64,000 nt of DNA, taken from IMG/VR virus record IMGVR_UViG_3300040807_002082, positions 1 through 64,000 of that record; one strand, 5' to 3'. The notes under the pieces were generated by a model. It did not search any database. It was not told where the DNA came from and saw only the letters and a list, made by a program, of their open reading frames with translations. Below are positions 27,584 to 60,582 of this stretch, piece by piece (position 1 is the stretch's first letter; the number at the start of each line of letters is the position of its first letter). The position numbers and the translations under genes were made by a program. The DNA is from a virus.

Positions 27584-28372
27584 ATGCGTAAACTACTAGT
27601 AACAACAGCACTTGTTTTTACCGCGGGTTCAGCAATGGCCGCAGAATTGGGTGGAGAAATTTCCGTAGATATCGCAGAGACAGCTGCAGGAGATTGGGGT
27701 GCAACCACATCTTTTGACTTAGGTATTGCGTCAATGGGTTCAGCTGTTCCAGCATTTGGAGCGATTGAACTTGATATGGACGAAGAAGGAGATATTACTC
27801 TTGACGAATGGAAAATCGGTACTGTCATTAATGGCGATGCTGTAATTTCAATCGGTGACCAAGGTAATATTTGGTTGGATCGCGAATCAGATGCTGCACA
27901 CGCAACAACCGCGGATCCAGCAATGAAGGAATCAGTACAAGTAACGGCTTTAGGAGCGTCTATGGCAATTGGCTTTACTGATGTCGAAGCGGACGTAACT
28001 GATATTGAAAACGTCCAAGGCAAATACGAAATGGGAGTAGGTGCGAATATTAATGTTGCCGCAGCAGGCGATTACAATATGAACTCTGAAGAATGGACAA
28101 TCGGCGGCCGCGCAGAAGTAGGTGTTAACGATATGTTCGCTATCGGTCAAATGGTAACATACGGCTCAGCTGATGAGAAAATCGGTTATGAATCCGATAT
28201 CTCAGCATTTGGTGTTACTGCATATTTGAACGGTGATGCTGATGAGCTTGCACAAAACGTTGGTGGTTCATATACATATGATCTAAACGGTATTGAACTA
28301 GGTGCTGGTGTTAACTATAACATTGACACTGAAGCAACTACACCATCTGTATCTGCATCATTTGCTTTTTAA
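27584..28372 (+). CDS. Outer-membrane beta-barrel (porin-like) protein
   Basis: 262 residues from ATG 27584, which has GAAAGGA in front (an earlier in-frame ATG lies in the terminator T-tract). A clear signal peptide ends ...AGSAMAA. The mature part alternates short strands rich in Gly/Val with acidic loops and ends in ASFAF, the terminal-Phe signature recognised by the BAM machinery. Very acidic, as in marine porins. Probably placed in the host outer membrane during infection, where it could mask receptors or change permeability. No porin subfamily can be named by eye. Confidence 0.8.
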   Translation: MRKLLVTTALVFTAGSAMAAELGGEISVDIAETAAGDWGATTSFDLGIASMGSAVPAFGAIELDMDEEGDITLDEWKIGTVINGDAVISIGDQGNIWLDRESDAAHATTADPAMKESVQVTALGASMAIGFTDVEADVTDIENVQGKYEMGVGANINVAAAGDYNMNSEEWTIGGRAEVGVNDMFAIGQMVTYGSADEKIGYESDISAFGVTAYLNGDADELAQNVGGSYTYDLNGIELGAGVNYNIDTEATTPSVSASFAF

Positions 28373-28404: not shown

Positions 28405-28429
28405 GGGGCGGTCTTGTACTGCCCCTTTG
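28405..28429 (+). terminator. Rho-independent terminator after the barrel protein gene
   Basis: GGGGCGGT and ACTGCCCC form an 8-bp stem (one G-T wobble) with loop CTTGT, followed by TTT. Confidence 0.7.
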
Positions 28430-28437
28430 GTCTTCTG

Positions 28438-28445
28438 TATAAATA
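28438..28445 (+). promoter_or_regulatory. Late promoter box (TATAAATA) for heme oxygenase
   Basis: Exact TATAAATA just after a terminator and 26 nt before the heme oxygenase ATG. GGAGG is the ribosome site. No TTGACA site is seen here, so the gene looks late-expressed. Confidence 0.65.
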
Positions 28446-28470
28446 AAACTGATTACGTATGGAGGATGAC

Positions 28471-29022
28471 ATGTCTTTGAAATTAAAAGAACTTACGTGG
28501 GCTCATCACCAAGCAGCAGAAAGAAGAGCGTTTGCTAAACAGCTTTTAAGTGGTAAAATTGAACCAAAGCTGTATCATAAGTTCTTGTGTTGCCAATATT
28601 TGAATTATCAAATTCTTGAGTCATACACAGAAGTACCATCGCATTTATTACCGATAAGAAGAGAATCACGTATCTGGACAGACATCCGTGAGCTTGAGGT
28701 AGAATACGATTTAACACCCGATGGAAATTACCCTCAATCCGTCGAGGATTATAACAAACATATTAAGAGTCTTGCTGAAAAAGGAGATCAACACGGTCTT
28801 CTTGCGCATATGTATGTACGTCATTTTGGCGATTTACATGGCGGTCAGATGATTAAAAAACGAGTTCCTGGTTCTGGTAAAATGTATGAGTTTGAACTCG
28901 AAAAAGAATATCTCATTGAGGAATTTCGTAAATATCTTGATGACGATATGGCTGAGGAAGCGAAAATATGTTTTGATTTTGCATCTCAGCTTTTTGATGA
29001 ATTGTCTAAAGAAATAGATTGA
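28471..29022 (+). CDS. Heme oxygenase (biliverdin-forming, HO-1 family)
   Basis: 183 residues. The heme-ligand region TWAHHQAAE fits TxxxHxxAE with proximal His13. The distal-helix motif GDLHGGQ is at residues 120-126, preceded by YVRHF. HO uses reduced ferredoxin and O2 to open heme to biliverdin, CO and Fe2+. Start chosen at 28471 (GGAGG upstream) rather than an in-frame ATG that overlaps the ribosome site. The bilin reductase gene follows within 400 nt. Shorter than the plant and cyanobacterial enzymes (about 230-240) but complete in motifs. Confidence 0.93.
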   Translation: MSLKLKELTWAHHQAAERRAFAKQLLSGKIEPKLYHKFLCCQYLNYQILESYTEVPSHLLPIRRESRIWTDIRELEVEYDLTPDGNYPQSVEDYNKHIKSLAEKGDQHGLLAHMYVRHFGDLHGGQMIKKRVPGSGKMYEFELEKEYLIEEFRKYLDDDMAEEAKICFDFASQLFDELSKEID

Positions 29023-29046
29023 CATTTCATTAAACTGTTATATTAT
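29019..29046 (+). promoter_or_regulatory. Sigma70-like promoter downstream of heme oxygenase
   Basis: TTGACA, 16 nt, TATTAT, overlapping the heme oxygenase stop. It would express the 57-aa protein, the AbrB-like protein and the bilin reductase independently of heme oxygenase. Confidence 0.7.
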
Positions 29047-29075
29047 TAAATTGTAGCAAACAAACGGAGGGTAAC

Positions 29076-29249
29076 ATGGAACAAGCAATTCCTGTATACG
29101 AAGATGTTGAAGTTAAACCTGTAGTACGCGGAGAGCGTATGCTACGTAGTGAAGCTGCACGAACTAGGCGACGAGAATTGAAGACCGTTCGTGAGAATCG
29201 AGTCATTAACGAATGGGCACGTGCTCGGCGCGCAAAGAAGAAGAAATAA
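29076..29249 (+). CDS. Basic 57-aa protein
   Basis: GGAGGG ribosome site. Acidic first third, then strongly basic (ARTRRRELKTVR and ARARRAKKKK), which suggests RNA or DNA binding. TAATG coupling with the next gene. No family recognised. Confidence 0.6.
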   Translation: MEQAIPVYEDVEVKPVVRGERMLRSEAARTRRRELKTVRENRVINEWARARRAKKKK

Positions 29250-29452
29250 TGACAAGTTATTTGACAGAAGTAAAGGAGGATCCCCTTAACGGGGACCTCT
29301 ACATCGAGTTCCCACCAGAATTTTTAGAAGAATTAGGATGGGGAGAAAACGACGAACTGATTTGGGAACAAACCGATCTTGGTTGGTCAATAAGGAAAAA
29401 TGAAGATGCATCCATTATGGATCAGGCTCGAAAAACTGGCGACCAATCTTAG
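29249..29452 (+). CDS. AbrB/SpoVT-like small DNA-binding protein
   Basis: 67 residues from ATG 29249. NGDLYIEFPPEFLEELGWGE followed by DELIWEQTDLGWSI resembles the swapped-hairpin AbrB/MazE fold (x-I-P-x-E-x-x-x-x-L-G-W-x-x-G/N-D). It may regulate transcription or act as an antitoxin-like protein; no toxin is adjacent. Overlaps the bilin reductase start by 53 nt. Confidence 0.55.
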   Translation: MTSYLTEVKEDPLNGDLYIEFPPEFLEELGWGENDELIWEQTDLGWSIRKNEDASIMDQARKTGDQS

Positions 29453-30089
29453 CAAAAAATTTGACGAGCATTTTACAAAATGGGATAATCCAAAATACGA
29501 TGATAGTCTAAAGTTTCCTGGATGGAAAGACGATTTTTGGTTATCTCCTTTAATTCGTAAAGCGCATTTAAAAACAATCGTACCTGAGGACGGTAAAGGA
29601 TTGTGGCTAATGCATGTGAATGTATTTCCACGCGAAGGTATTGAATTGCCAATCCTTGGGTTTGATATTGTAGCAGGTCCTAAAAAGATTACAGGATCTT
29701 TTATGGATTTTAGCCCATTACACGGTCATCCACATCCGTACCATGATTATATGGAAATGGTAGTTAAAAATCTTGAATGGGTTAAAGCAAGAGAATTACC
29801 ACCTTGGGCAAAAGAAATCTTTTCAGAGGATATGATTGCAGTTGGTAACATTAATACAGACGAAGAATTAAATCAATTCATTGACGTCACGACAGATCTT
29901 ACAGATTATTATTTAGATAACATTGTAAAAAATGCGTTCAGGTCAAATCGCGATACAAAACCAATTCTAAACAAATATTGCTTTAATCAAAAAATGAATC
30001 CACATTTACATCGTTCAATTGAAGCAATGGGCATCTCAAAACAAGATAAGAATCGTTACGTTGATACTATTTTATTTGAGGAGATATAA
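29400..30089 (+). CDS. Ferredoxin-dependent bilin reductase (HY2 family, PcyX/PebS/PcyA-like)
   Basis: 229 residues. The order of family landmarks is intact: HPLWIRLEKLA start, VFPREGIELPILGFDIVAG (about 75-93), FMDFSPL with the conserved catalytic-type Asp103, ELPPWAKEIFS (132-142), and YCFNQKMNP (193-201). The usual Asn-Asp of the last motif is Asn-Pro here. These enzymes reduce biliverdin with electrons from ferredoxin to phycobilins such as phycoerythrobilin. Lacks the extra length of plant HY2. Which bilin is made cannot be read from sequence; PcyX-type is my best guess because the context is non-cyanobacterial. Confidence 0.88.
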   Translation: MKMHPLWIRLEKLATNLSKKFDEHFTKWDNPKYDDSLKFPGWKDDFWLSPLIRKAHLKTIVPEDGKGLWLMHVNVFPREGIELPILGFDIVAGPKKITGSFMDFSPLHGHPHPYHDYMEMVVKNLEWVKARELPPWAKEIFSEDMIAVGNINTDEELNQFIDVTTDLTDYYLDNIVKNAFRSNRDTKPILNKYCFNQKMNPHLHRSIEAMGISKQDKNRYVDTILFEEI

Positions 30090-30766
30090 TGGCATTTCTT
30101 GTACACCCTTTGCCGCCAGTGAGTGTATACGTACGTAAAGAATATTTGTATGATTTGGAAAAAGGACATGGTGAATTCACTCCAGGTATTTGGATAAGCC
30201 TTAAGAGCACTAAATATAAAGCTCTTTATTTTGAAACCTTGTTAACCGATTATGGTGCACTCTATGATAAACTTCCTATCTCGGCTTTCGTTTGGAAAAC
30301 AGATCATGGCGAGCTTCTTCCTCTTGATGTGCTTCAGCTATGGGATTGCTTTGACTATGACATCACTGTCGTACAAAAACCACTCTTGTCACGCTGTGAA
30401 TTTTTCGGAAAGGATCGAAGAATGCATGCAGGAGAATACGAATTCACAGTGGATAATTGTCACCGCGATACTTCCATCATTGACACCAACTTCAGTGAAC
30501 ACGATCCCGAACACAAATCCTTCAACGTCATTAGGCTTGACAACGGTCAATTCGCTGCTCAGCCTAACAATCGGGTTATCTGGCGTGATAGCTCCTTAAC
30601 TCCTGATAAATTACTACAGCCTGACTTTAAAGTATGTACTCAAAACTACGCAGTAGAAACAGAACCTAAATGGTCTGTTGGCCACACTGACGAATGGCAA
30701 TATAAGACAGAAGAAGAGTACGAAATTTACCAATCAAAAGAATTGAAGAAAGGAAAAAACAGTTGA
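30089..30766 (+). CDS. Hypothetical protein, 225 aa
   Basis: Follows the bilin reductase without a gap. Begins MAFLVHPLPPVSVYVRKEYL. Contains several Cys and His (CEFFGKDRRMHAGEYEF, DNCHRD). I recognise similar proteins from marine T4-like phages but no function. Aromatic and acidic C-terminus. Confidence 0.65.
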   Translation: MAFLVHPLPPVSVYVRKEYLYDLEKGHGEFTPGIWISLKSTKYKALYFETLLTDYGALYDKLPISAFVWKTDHGELLPLDVLQLWDCFDYDITVVQKPLLSRCEFFGKDRRMHAGEYEFTVDNCHRDTSIIDTNFSEHDPEHKSFNVIRLDNGQFAAQPNNRVIWRDSSLTPDKLLQPDFKVCTQNYAVETEPKWSVGHTDEWQYKTEEEYEIYQSKELKKGKNS

Positions 30767-55612: not shown

Positions 55613-57910
55613 ATGATTCAGGTAGTAAAACGTGATGGGCGTAAAGAAACACTAGATATCGAGAAATTTCACAAAGTTGTATTCCATGCTTGTGAAGATG
55701 TCACTGGTGTTAGCCCATCGGAAGTGGAAATCAAAAGCCAAATCCAATTTTTCAATGGAATGTCAACAAAAGAAATTCAGGAAACATTGATTAAAGCTGC
55801 GTCTGATCTGATTTCTGAAGAGACTCCAAATTATCAATTTGTTGGCGGCCGTTTGATTAATTACGCTTTACGAAAAGAAGTCTATGGATCCTTTGAACCG
55901 ATCCACGTTAAGGAATTGGTTGAACGTAATACTGAGCATGGCTTTTACGATCCTGAATTAATTACTTATTACAATGATGAAGAATGGGACAAGATCAATG
56001 GTTTCATTAAGCATCAGCGTGATGAACAACTAACATATGTTGCCATGGAACAATTGCGTGGCAAATATCTGTGCCAAAACAGAGTTACAGGAGAAATCTT
56101 TGAAACACCGCAAATGTGTTATATCTTGATTGCTGCAACTCTTTTCAATAACTACCCAAAAGAAACCCGTTTGAAATGGGTTAAGGACTATTATGACGCC
56201 ATCTCTCTTCACGATATCAGCCTTCCTACTCCTGTCATGGCAGGTGTACGTACTCCTCAACGTCAGTTCTCGTCGTGCGTACTTATCGAAACAGGTGATT
56301 CCCTTGACAGCATTAATGCTACTTCTAGTAGCATCGTTAAGTACGTATCCCAAAAAGCAGGAATTGGAATTGGGGCTGGTTCAATCCGCGCTATCGGTTC
56401 ACCTATTAGGAAAGGAGACGCGTACCACACAGGAGTAATTCCTTTCTATAAGCACTTCCAATCTGCAACTAAATCTTGTTCTCAAGGTGGTGTTCGTGGC
56501 GGTGCTGCAACTTTGTATTATCCTATTTGGCATTATGAAGTTGAAGATTTGGTTGTCTTAAAAAACAACAAAGGTACCGAAGACAACCGCGTACGCCATA
56601 TGGACTACGGTGTTCAATTCAACAAACTAATGTATGAACGTTTAATCAAAGGTGAAGAAATTACATTGTTCTCTCCTAAAGATGTCCCAGGTTTGTATGA
56701 TGCGTTCTTTGCGGATCAAGACAAGTTTCGTGAGCTATATGAAAAAGCTGAACGCGCCACGAGTATTCGCAAGAAGAAAATTCCTGCGGCTCAGCTGTTC
56801 AGTATGTTTATGGAAGAACGCAAAAATACTGGTCGCATTTATCTACAAAACGTTGATAACGCAAATGATCATGGCGCGTTTTGGCCTGAGGTTGCGCCGA
56901 TTCGTCAATCAAACCTTTGCGCTGAAATTGATTTGCCAACCAAACCATTGAATGATATTAATGATCCTGAAGGTGAAATCTCTCTATGTACTCTAAGTGC
57001 TATTAACTGGGGTAACGTTAAATCGCCGGCAGATTTTGAAAAGGCATGTACACTTGCTGTTCGTGGTCTAGATGCTCTACTTTCATACCAAAATTATCCT
57101 ATTTTGGCTGCACAGCTTTCTACTGAAAAGCGTCGTCCTATTGGTGTTGGTATTATTAACTTTGCATATTGGTTGGCTAAGCAAGATTTGACATATCAAG
57201 ATATTACTCCTGAAGGTCTTGAGCTGATTGACGAATATGCCGAAGCATGGTCCTATTATCTGATTAAGGCATCAGCCGATCTCGCGGTTGAGCAAGGCGC
57301 CATTCCCGGTGTAATGGAAACTAAATACGGTAACGGTATTACGCCAAACCAAACATACAAGAAGGATCTCGACGATCTTGTTCCTCACAAAGAGCGTATG
57401 GATTGGAATGGTTTGCGCCGTCAACTTAAAGATACAGGCATTCGTAATTCTACCTTAATGGCATTGATGCCTTCAGAAACAAGTGCACAAGTTGCCAACG
57501 CTACGAACGGTATTGAACCACCTCGGTCGTTGATTTCCGTTAAGCAATCAAAGCACGGTGTACTCAAGCAGGTGGTTCCACAATTCCACCATTTGAAAAA
57601 TAAGTATGATTTGCTGTGGGATCAAAAATCTCCGCAAGGATACTTAAAGATTATGGCTGTTCTTCAGAAATACATTGACCAAGGTATCTCTGTCAATACA
57701 AGTTATAATCCGCAATTCTTTGAAGATGAAAAGATTCCAATGAGCGTGTTACTACAAGACCTTCTTATGTTCTATAAGTATGGAGGTAAGCAATTGTATT
57801 ACTTCAATACATATGATGGTCAAGGCGAACTTGATATTGATAAGATGACTGAAGAACCCCTTGCTCAAGGCGAAGTTGACGATGACGATTGCGAGTCTTG
57901 TAAAATCTAA
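55613..57910 (+). CDS. nrdA: Class I ribonucleotide reductase large subunit NrdA
   Basis: 765 residues, same as E. coli NrdA. N-terminal ATP-cone (KRDGRKETLDIEKFHKV), substrate-site Cys in FSSCVLIETGD, active-site NLCAEIDLP, radical-transfer and C-terminal Cys pair (ESCKI). GGxRxGAATLYYPIWH is characteristic. Reduces NDPs to dNDPs with NrdB. AAAGGA ribosome site after an AATAAATA late-like box (about 55565). Confidence 0.96.
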   Translation: MIQVVKRDGRKETLDIEKFHKVVFHACEDVTGVSPSEVEIKSQIQFFNGMSTKEIQETLIKAASDLISEETPNYQFVGGRLINYALRKEVYGSFEPIHVKELVERNTEHGFYDPELITYYNDEEWDKINGFIKHQRDEQLTYVAMEQLRGKYLCQNRVTGEIFETPQMCYILIAATLFNNYPKETRLKWVKDYYDAISLHDISLPTPVMAGVRTPQRQFSSCVLIETGDSLDSINATSSSIVKYVSQKAGIGIGAGSIRAIGSPIRKGDAYHTGVIPFYKHFQSATKSCSQGGVRGGAATLYYPIWHYEVEDLVVLKNNKGTEDNRVRHMDYGVQFNKLMYERLIKGEEITLFSPKDVPGLYDAFFADQDKFRELYEKAERATSIRKKKIPAAQLFSMFMEERKNTGRIYLQNVDNANDHGAFWPEVAPIRQSNLCAEIDLPTKPLNDINDPEGEISLCTLSAINWGNVKSPADFEKACTLAVRGLDALLSYQNYPILAAQLSTEKRRPIGVGIINFAYWLAKQDLTYQDITPEGLELIDEYAEAWSYYLIKASADLAVEQGAIPGVMETKYGNGITPNQTYKKDLDDLVPHKERMDWNGLRRQLKDTGIRNSTLMALMPSETSAQVANATNGIEPPRSLISVKQSKHGVLKQVVPQFHHLKNKYDLLWDQKSPQGYLKIMAVLQKYIDQGISVNTSYNPQFFEDEKIPMSVLLQDLLMFYKYGGKQLYYFNTYDGQGELDIDKMTEEPLAQGEVDDDDCESCKI

Positions 57911-59101: not shown

Positions 59102-59352
59102 CCGTAGAAATTTGGGGTAAGGAAGCTTGCCCATCATGTAAATCAGCAAGACAGTTTTGTAGATCTCGAAACCTAGATTTTGATTATAAAATTCTAGGAA
59201 CGGATTTTACTCGTGAAGAAGTGTTTGAAAACTTTCCTGAAGCAAAAACTTTTCCACAGATTAAAGTTAATGGTAGTATCGTTGGTGGTTATGAGGCATT
59301 TGTAAAATACGTTGAGGACACGGGATACACAGGAACTGGTCACTCATTATAA
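59098..59352 (+). CDS. Glutaredoxin
   Basis: 84 residues. Active site CPSC (11-14) instead of the usual CPYC; TFPQIKVNGSIVGGYE is the conserved cis-Pro/GG region. Would re-reduce NrdA. Its end overlaps the late box that drives ALA synthase. Confidence 0.92.
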   Translation: MTVEIWGKEACPSCKSARQFCRSRNLDFDYKILGTDFTREEVFENFPEAKTFPQIKVNGSIVGGYEAFVKYVEDTGYTGTGHSL

Positions 59353-59355
59353 ATA
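59348..59355 (+). promoter_or_regulatory. Late promoter box for ALA synthase
   Basis: TATAAATA, 38 nt upstream of the ALA synthase ATG. No TTGACA-type site is seen here. Confidence 0.65.
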
Positions 59356-59385: not shown

Positions 59386-60582
59386 ATGGATTACTTGCAA
59401 TATTTTGAGGATACGATAAAAGACTTTAAATCCGATGGACGATATAGAGTCTTTAACGATATCATTCGAGAAAAAGGAAATTTTCCTAAAGCAATATGGT
59501 ATGGTAAGTATGCTCCAAAAAATATTGTAAATTGGTGCTCTAATGATTATCTAGGTATGGGTCAAAACCAATATGTTATTGATGCCATGCACACTGCGTT
59601 AGACCAAACAGGCGCAGGTTCTGGCGGTACTCGTAACATCGGCGGGACATCCCAATATCACGTTACCCTTGAGCGGGAACTTGCGCTGCTTCACAACAAA
59701 GAGGCGGCGCTTCTTTTTTCTTCGGCATATGTAGCAAATGAATGGTCGATTATTGCTCTTAGCCGTATTATACCAAATATTTGTTATATTTCGGATACAA
59801 AGAATCATGCTTCTATTATTATGGGTGTTAAGCATAGCCGAGCACCGAAGCATTTGTTTGAACATAACAATATGCAAGACTTGGAAGAAAAACTCGAAAC
59901 CGCAGTTAAGAATAACCAAATCCCTTGTATTCTATTTGAGTCAGTTTATTCCATGGACGGTGATGTATCACCCATCAAAGACATCTGTGATTTAGCAGAT
60001 AAATATGGGGCAATAACTTATATTGATGAAGTTCATGCAGTTGGTTTGTATGGAGACACCGGCGCAGGTTATTGCGAACAGTTAGGTCTCCAAGATAGGA
60101 TAACAATTATAAATGGAACATTGGGAAAAGCCTTTGGGGTTCAAGGTGGGTATATTGCTGGCGATCGCATTGTTACTGACGCTATTCGGTCCGTGGCTTC
60201 TGGGTTCATCTTTACAACAAGTATCTCGCCCGCAATCTGCGCAGGTGCTATTGCCTCCATCAAATATCTCCGTGACCATCCTTCCCTCCGCAGAAGACAT
60301 CAGAAAAAAGCAGAACAATTAAAGTATCTGCTCGGCCACGAAGATATTCATATTCATCAAAACGCGTGCACACATATCGTACCCGTGATGGTTAACGATG
60401 CGTTTAAATGTAAAGCCGCGAGTGACCGTCTATTGAATGATTATGGAATTTATATTCAACCAATTAACAGTCCTACAGTTGATCCTGGTACTGAAAGATT
60501 ACGTATTGCGCCAACCCCTTATCACGACGATATAATGGTTATTGAATTGGTTACTGCATTGAAAGAAGTACTATGTGGGTGA
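59386..60582 (+). CDS. hemA: 5-aminolevulinate synthase (Shemin pathway)
   Basis: 398 residues, near the 400-409 of alphaproteobacterial [47 protein letters not shown]-lysine in GTLGKAFGV (Lys248), and the ALAS-specific C-terminal [12 protein letters not shown] followed by [11 protein letters not shown] are all present. These separate it from AONS and KBL relatives. It condenses glycine and succinyl-CoA to ALA, the first step of heme synthesis. Start at ATG 59386; an upstream GTG is possible. Two small genes and a DUF454 gene follow in operon. Confidence 0.95.

Follow-up and report, generated by a model that had tools for sequence, protein, structure and literature searches.

The pairing of a heme oxygenase (HO) with a ferredoxin-dependent bilin reductase (FDBR) in phages that do not infect cyanobacteria is already known and not new, since both phage Mosig and a set of hemO-pcyA/X-valaS phages have been published. 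Pelagibacter phage Mosig EXVC030M infects the SAR11 strain HTCC1062 (PMC7892664), and in its genome the HO gene adjoins the gene for a PcyX-type reductase. A 2024 paper described phage hemO, pcyA/X, and valaS genes in full or broken cassettes of marine and freshwater origin and reported that the CB_2 enzymes are active (PMC11480375). What such phage genes are for in hosts that lack phycobilisomes is acknowledged to be an open question (PMC11480375).

Here, we analyzed a 64,000-nucleotide (nt) stretch of DNA, referred to as the window, which was taken from a virus record of 77,680 bases with replication genes of the T4 type. The window contains an HO gene, an FDBR gene and, about 29 kb from this pair, a gene for 5-aminolevulinate synthase (AlaS), the third gene of the known set, on which the preliminary description of this DNA was silent. 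As all three genes lie on one phage contig, the window represents a broken form of the hemO-FDBR-alaS set. What looks new is an FDBR from a sister clade of PcyX carrying a lysine (Lys58), the separate promoters for HO and FDBR, and a GELHGG motif in most HOs of this clade. Reductases with this lysine, as well as their loci, are termed lysine-type below, and those of PcyX phages Asp-type.

Gene content and promoter motifs of the locus

The features considered here are the following:

27584 to 28372, plus strand: porin-like outer-membrane beta-barrel protein with a signal peptide and a C-terminal Phe, directly upstream of HO (from sequence and model)
28405 to 28425, plus strand: hairpin GGGGCGGT-cttgt-ACTGCCCC between the porin-like gene and HO, with comparable hairpins at this location in relatives
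28438 to 28445, plus strand: T4-type late promoter motif TATAAATA, 33 nt upstream of the HO start
28471 to 29022, plus strand: HO of the HO-1 type, 183 amino acids
29019 to 29046, plus strand: sigma70-type promoter motif TTGACA-16-TATTAT, located at the stop codon of HO and preceding the basic open reading frame (ORF) and FDBR
29076 to 29249, plus strand: 57-amino-acid Arg/Lys-rich protein between HO and FDBR
29213 to 29452, plus strand: small AbrB-like protein whose frame overlaps the start of FDBR (phrog_661, E value of 2e-11)
29400 to 30089, plus strand: FDBR of the lysine type, 229 amino acids (from PF05996, tree, residues, and model)
59348 to 59355, plus strand: TATAAATA motif, 38 nt upstream of AlaS
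59386 to 60582, plus strand: AlaS of the Shemin pathway, 398 amino acids (TIGR01821, 556.7 bits versus a cut-off of 338.6)

The HO-1-type enzyme that the preliminary description had recognized was borne out by a match to PF01126 (E value of 5e-20; 72.5 bits, cut-off of 23), and the nearest solved structures are heme oxygenases. Its proposed start at 28471 is to be preferred over the first in-frame ATG at 28459, because relatives begin at the equivalent Met. Counted from this start, the proximal His is residue 13, and the His of the HxxAE motif is retained. The distal motif of the window HO reads GDLHGG and thus has the GD-L-x-GG form with the residue corresponding to Asp140. In human HO-1, Asp140 is a member of a proton network, and its replacement converts the enzyme into a peroxidase (D140A) or much reduces its activity (D140H) (PMC5623701, PMC7948506). 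GELHGG was found in 50 of 56 lysine-type HOs and GDLxGG in 107 of 114 Asp-type HOs. At a few loci, a different HO (35 to 38% identical to the window HO) adjoins a lysine-type FDBR, which indicates that the HO and FDBR genes are separately exchangeable.

HO lies upstream of FDBR in 95 of 104 lysine-type loci, a pairing far beyond chance, and 8 of the remaining 9 loci are interrupted by a contig end. Across 71 nonredundant lysine-type loci, the gene order is porin-like (present in 35), HO (64), 57-amino-acid basic protein (63), AbrB-like (46), FDBR, gp33, gp59, gp32, and uvsX. The distance of 377 nt given earlier for HO and FDBR is correct, and the gap contains two ORFs, those of the basic and the AbrB-like proteins. 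Between the HO and FDBR frames, the median distance is +375 nt in lysine-type loci versus −19 nt in Asp-type loci, where the frames abut or overlap. Family searches assigned the basic protein to no clear known family; its ORF is the first gene after the sigma70-type promoter. Many relatives of the AbrB-like protein start at the Met that corresponds to position 29249 in the window.

The motif TATAAATA corresponds to the T4 late promoter, which takes the form NATAAATA in marine T4-like phages (PMC2984593). Upstream of HO, TATAAATA was present in 30 of 44 lysine-type loci (0.7 expected), at 31 to 47 nt before the HO start in 28 of these 30, and in 3 of 119 Asp-type loci (2.5 expected). After de-duplication of the lysine-type loci, which are relatives and not independent samples, the late motif preceded HO in 24 of 36, and a sigma70-type promoter (no more than two mismatches) preceded the basic ORF in 33 of 35. 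The positive control, gp32, had the late motif upstream in 29 of 31 cases, and none was found upstream of FDBR, gp33, gp59, or uvsX in the de-duplicated loci. Because a sigma70-type motif precedes the unit of basic protein, AbrB-like protein, and FDBR, and a T4-type late motif precedes HO, these sequences suggest that the reductase unit is expressed early and HO late; transcription may also read through from HO into FDBR.

The TATAAATA motif upstream of AlaS was rejected as part of a common switch for HO and AlaS, since it is not conserved in relatives. AlaS was not detected in the other lysine-type records, most of which are fragments. In some relatives, the gene preceding AlaS seems to be one whose product ends in a Cys-rich stretch, possibly nrdA; in the window, an nrdA gene (55613 to 57910) lies upstream of AlaS, which has its own late-type motif.

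Phylogeny and active site of the reductase

Membership of the reductase in the HY2 (FDBR) family had been set as a test by the preliminary description, which had claimed a full-length FDBR. The protein matched PF05996 (E value of 5e-15; 56.3 bits versus a cut-off of 31), and its AlphaFold2 model, computed from a 53-sequence input (mean pLDDT of 93.2), adopts the FDBR fold over its full length, so that both expectations were confirmed. FDBRs in the PDB matched this model with Z scores of 17 to 25, among them PcyA (about 24), PebA (23.9), and PcyX 5OWG (21.7; rmsd of 1.7 Å). The closest solved sequence was that of PcyX 5OWG (E value of 1e-35), and the best PcyA reached 4e-15.

Relatives of the FDBR were collected from IMG/VR scans with window-type and Mosig-type queries, and the counts given here refer to distinct sequences. 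The lysine-type lineage comprises about a hundred contigs. In the column of PcyA Glu76, the residue is Lys in all 55 lysine-type sequences, Asp in all 143 PcyX-type sequences, and, among 72 PcyA sequences, Glu in 71 and Gln in one; the window residue is Lys58, and the PcyX-specific residue is Asp55. Residues N74, M102, L203, and H204 are further fixed differences of the lysine-type FDBRs. His72 and Asp89, which correspond to PcyA His88 and Asp105, are invariant across the lysine-type, PcyX-type, and PcyA groups. The Asn-Pro at positions 200 and 201, to which the preliminary description had drawn attention, is indeed present but is not peculiar to this protein, as 197 of the 198 sequences of the PcyX and lysine types share it, nearly all PcyA having Asn-Asp. 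It thus sets PcyX and the lysine-type apart from PcyA and was dismissed as a product determinant particular to the window FDBR, whose unusual residue is Lys58.

In a maximum-likelihood tree built without column 58 and without alphaproteobacterial PcyA and CB_2 PcyA/X, the lysine-type clade had a support of 100/99 and the PcyX clade, including 5OWG, 96/94, and both together were separated from PcyA with 100/99. A quick tree of 93 rows yielded the same grouping of lysine-type versus PcyX; the PebA and PebB tree references came from PLSDB plasmids, where only cyanobacterial records came up. The placement that had been called for thus puts the FDBR near PcyX, and the link to PcyX drawn earlier was right as to the neighborhood, but the reductase falls outside the PcyX clade, as its sister, and outside PcyA. 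Judged by sequence and residues, the window FDBR is best classed as a sister of PcyX and not as PcyX, since it lies outside the 5OWG clade and lacks Asp55 while having the His72-Asp89 pair and N200-P201. It has no Glu76 and does not group with PcyA in the tree that omits alphaproteobacterial PcyA and CB_2. No mention of a lysine at the Glu76 position was found in the FDBR literature searched; some lysine-type sequences may already be drawn as "PcyX" in the supplementary tree of PMC11480375. The PcyA Glu76 position is regarded as decisive for which biliverdin double bond is reduced, and a viral lineage with a fixed lysine at this position therefore constitutes a natural test of FDBR product choice.

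Proposed pathway, product, and host

On balance, we lean slightly toward the view that this T4-like phage infects a marine Gram-negative bacterium, probably a non-phototroph, and encodes an AlaS-HO-FDBR bilin pathway, with phycoerythrobilin (PEB) as the likeliest product, the FDBR made early, and HO made late. AlaS activity is the first step of heme synthesis, and the phage enzyme would raise the level of 5-aminolevulinate and with it that of host heme. HO, as its family and residues suggest, would open heme to biliverdin IXalpha, CO, and iron, and the FDBR would reduce the biliverdin. The electrons would probably come from host ferredoxin. No 2Fe-2S ferredoxin (Fer2 domain) was found in the record of the window; the other lysine-type records searched gave none either. 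The product of the plus-strand gene at 30089 to 30766, which bears the PHROG label "ferredoxin," was rejected as the electron donor since its four Cys form no 2Fe-2S motif. Relatives of this product are widespread in cyanophages, where they are often annotated as purM, and the "ferredoxin" label that they carry in PHROG and GenBank looks like a misannotation. The reductase unit would be transcribed early by a host-type RNA polymerase, whereas HO would await late activation by the T4-type gp55/gp33 system; the reductase would thus be in place before biliverdin production starts. The promoter split is thus a sequence-level hint on the timing of bilin making or use in hosts without phycobilisomes. 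HO, FDBR, and AlaS of a related phage set are active (PMC11480375).

PEB would arise by PcyX-like chemistry and is favored because the nearest characterized enzyme makes PEB and Glu76 is absent; the catalytic His72-Asp89 pair is retained. Glu76 is required for 18-vinyl reduction and is absent from PcyX (PMC10151467); with Lys58 in place of the PcyA Glu76, reduction of the 18-vinyl group to phycocyanobilin (PCB) is not expected. PEB or a two-electron product, rather than PCB, is thus predicted. Since lysine is chemically opposite to Glu and Asp, the product and even the activity of lysine-type FDBRs may differ.

The main rival to PEB is indeed a two-electron product, an outcome that we consider possible though rather doubtful. 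Lys58 would alter proton delivery, and the enzyme would stop at 15,16-dihydrobiliverdin or reduce the A ring to phytochromobilin, like some pre-PcyA enzymes. The basic character of the PcyA/PcyX-separating residue in 55 of 55 sequences and the fixed N74, M102, L203, and H204 speak for it, as does the fact that pre-PcyA enzymes without Glu76 yield phytochromobilin and some PEB (PMC10151467). However, the catalytic His-Asp pair, partly missing in pre-PcyA, is intact here, and the nearest characterized enzyme is PcyX.

It is quite improbable that the genes serve not to make a pigment but to release iron or CO or to dispose of biliverdin, with HO mobilizing host-heme iron and the FDBR removing or sequestering biliverdin. 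A role in supplying iron has been put forward for phages of this kind (PMC11480375), a porin-like gene adjoins HO, and ten lysine-type records yielded neither a phytochrome PHY nor a phycobiliprotein domain. However, AlaS, a heme-building enzyme, is also encoded, which makes net iron release less likely, and the strictly conserved FDBR active site argues that catalysis, not mere binding, is under selection. Formation of PCB, as by the enzyme of phage CB_2, is very unlikely; the CB_2 PcyA/X also lacks the PcyX Asp55 yet makes PCB (PMC11480375), but Glu76, which 18-vinyl reduction requires (PMC10151467), is Lys here. Moreover, the lysine-type clade groups with PcyX and not with PcyA in the tree, from which CB_2 is absent. 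That these are ordinary cyanophage pigment genes, with a cyanobacterial host and a bilin for phycobilisomes, is scarcely credible even though the product of 30089 to 30766 is about 80% and the DNA polymerase about 45% identical to cyanophage proteins: no psbA/psbD-type reaction-centre gene (PF00124) was found in the lysine-type records searched, most of them incomplete but with contigs as long as 221 and 183 kb among them; cyanobacteria form 5-aminolevulinate by the C5 route and not with the Shemin enzyme encoded here; and the nearest relative of UvsX is that of Phage C48C1 (65%), followed mostly by those of proteobacterial phages.

The lack of any psbA/psbD-type gene in these records agrees with the preliminary description, which had seen no cyanobacterial sign. 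A profile search found no HO in Phage C48C1, the nearest phage. The porin-like protein suggests a Gram-negative host, and an alphaproteobacterial one is plausible. The AlphaFold2 model of this protein has 16 strands (pLDDT of 79) and matched porin folds best, with a Rhodobacter blasticus porin as the top PDB match; the protein had no match among 50,697 phage records and no similarity to the HTVC008M porin. As a host marker, the porin-like gene was discarded, since in an even sample of 289 genomes across the class to which the Rhodobacteraceae bin Water_Bin34 belongs, the sole match was a phage contig of Water_Bin34 itself. The binning of three lysine-type phage contigs with this bin gives a weak hint of a Rhodobacteraceae host. 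A bacterial origin of the Water_Bin34 copies was ruled out, because gp33-gp59-gp32-uvsX-gp41 adjoin HO-FDBR on all three contigs, which are therefore phage; FDBRs are rare in the class (3 of 385 genomes). A Rhodobacter-like sponge-symbiont bin with an AlaS that clusters with those of phages has been described (PMC11480375) and may be Water_Bin34. A 335-kb contig binned as Neomarinimicrobiota (PBPT01000016.1) carries an Asp-type FDBR, an HO gene lying about 1.6 kb upstream of it, and apparently AlaS too.

A bolder reading, which we entertain only tentatively, is that the lysine-type reductases form a new FDBR class with its own regiospecificity, making a bilin other than PEB or PCB, accompanied in most cases by an altered HO pocket (GELHGG) and with the reductase early and HO late. 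If such a class with staged steps exists, it would mean that viruses of non-photosynthetic bacteria have a dedicated bilin pathway.

Comparison with known systems

The window FDBR shares with PcyX (5OWG, PcyX_EBK42635, and Mosig) the fold, the Asn-Pro, and the His-Asp pair at about 35% identity, and its phage shares with PcyX phages the adjoining HO gene and the setting of marine T4-like phages of non-phototrophs. However, PcyX has Asp where the window FDBR has Lys58, the two belonging to sister clades, and HO and FDBR abut in PcyX phages, whereas two small genes and a promoter separate them in the window. As in the hemO-pcyA/X-valaS sets, including that of CB_2, all three genes occur in one phage (PMC11480375); in that work, the PCB-forming FDBR of CB_2 was positioned between PcyX and PcyA (PMC11480375), whereas the window FDBR is classed here as a PcyX sister. 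Cyanobacterial and cyanophage PcyA has the fold and the His-Asp pair in common with the window FDBR, but it carries Glu76 and Asn-Asp in contrast to Lys58 and Asn-Pro, and the window FDBR does not group with the PcyA sequences in the tree. Another phage FDBR is PebS of Prochlorococcus phage P-SSM2, whose four-electron product the window FDBR is presumed to share, but PebS is very distant in sequence and falls with PebA and PebB in the quick tree.
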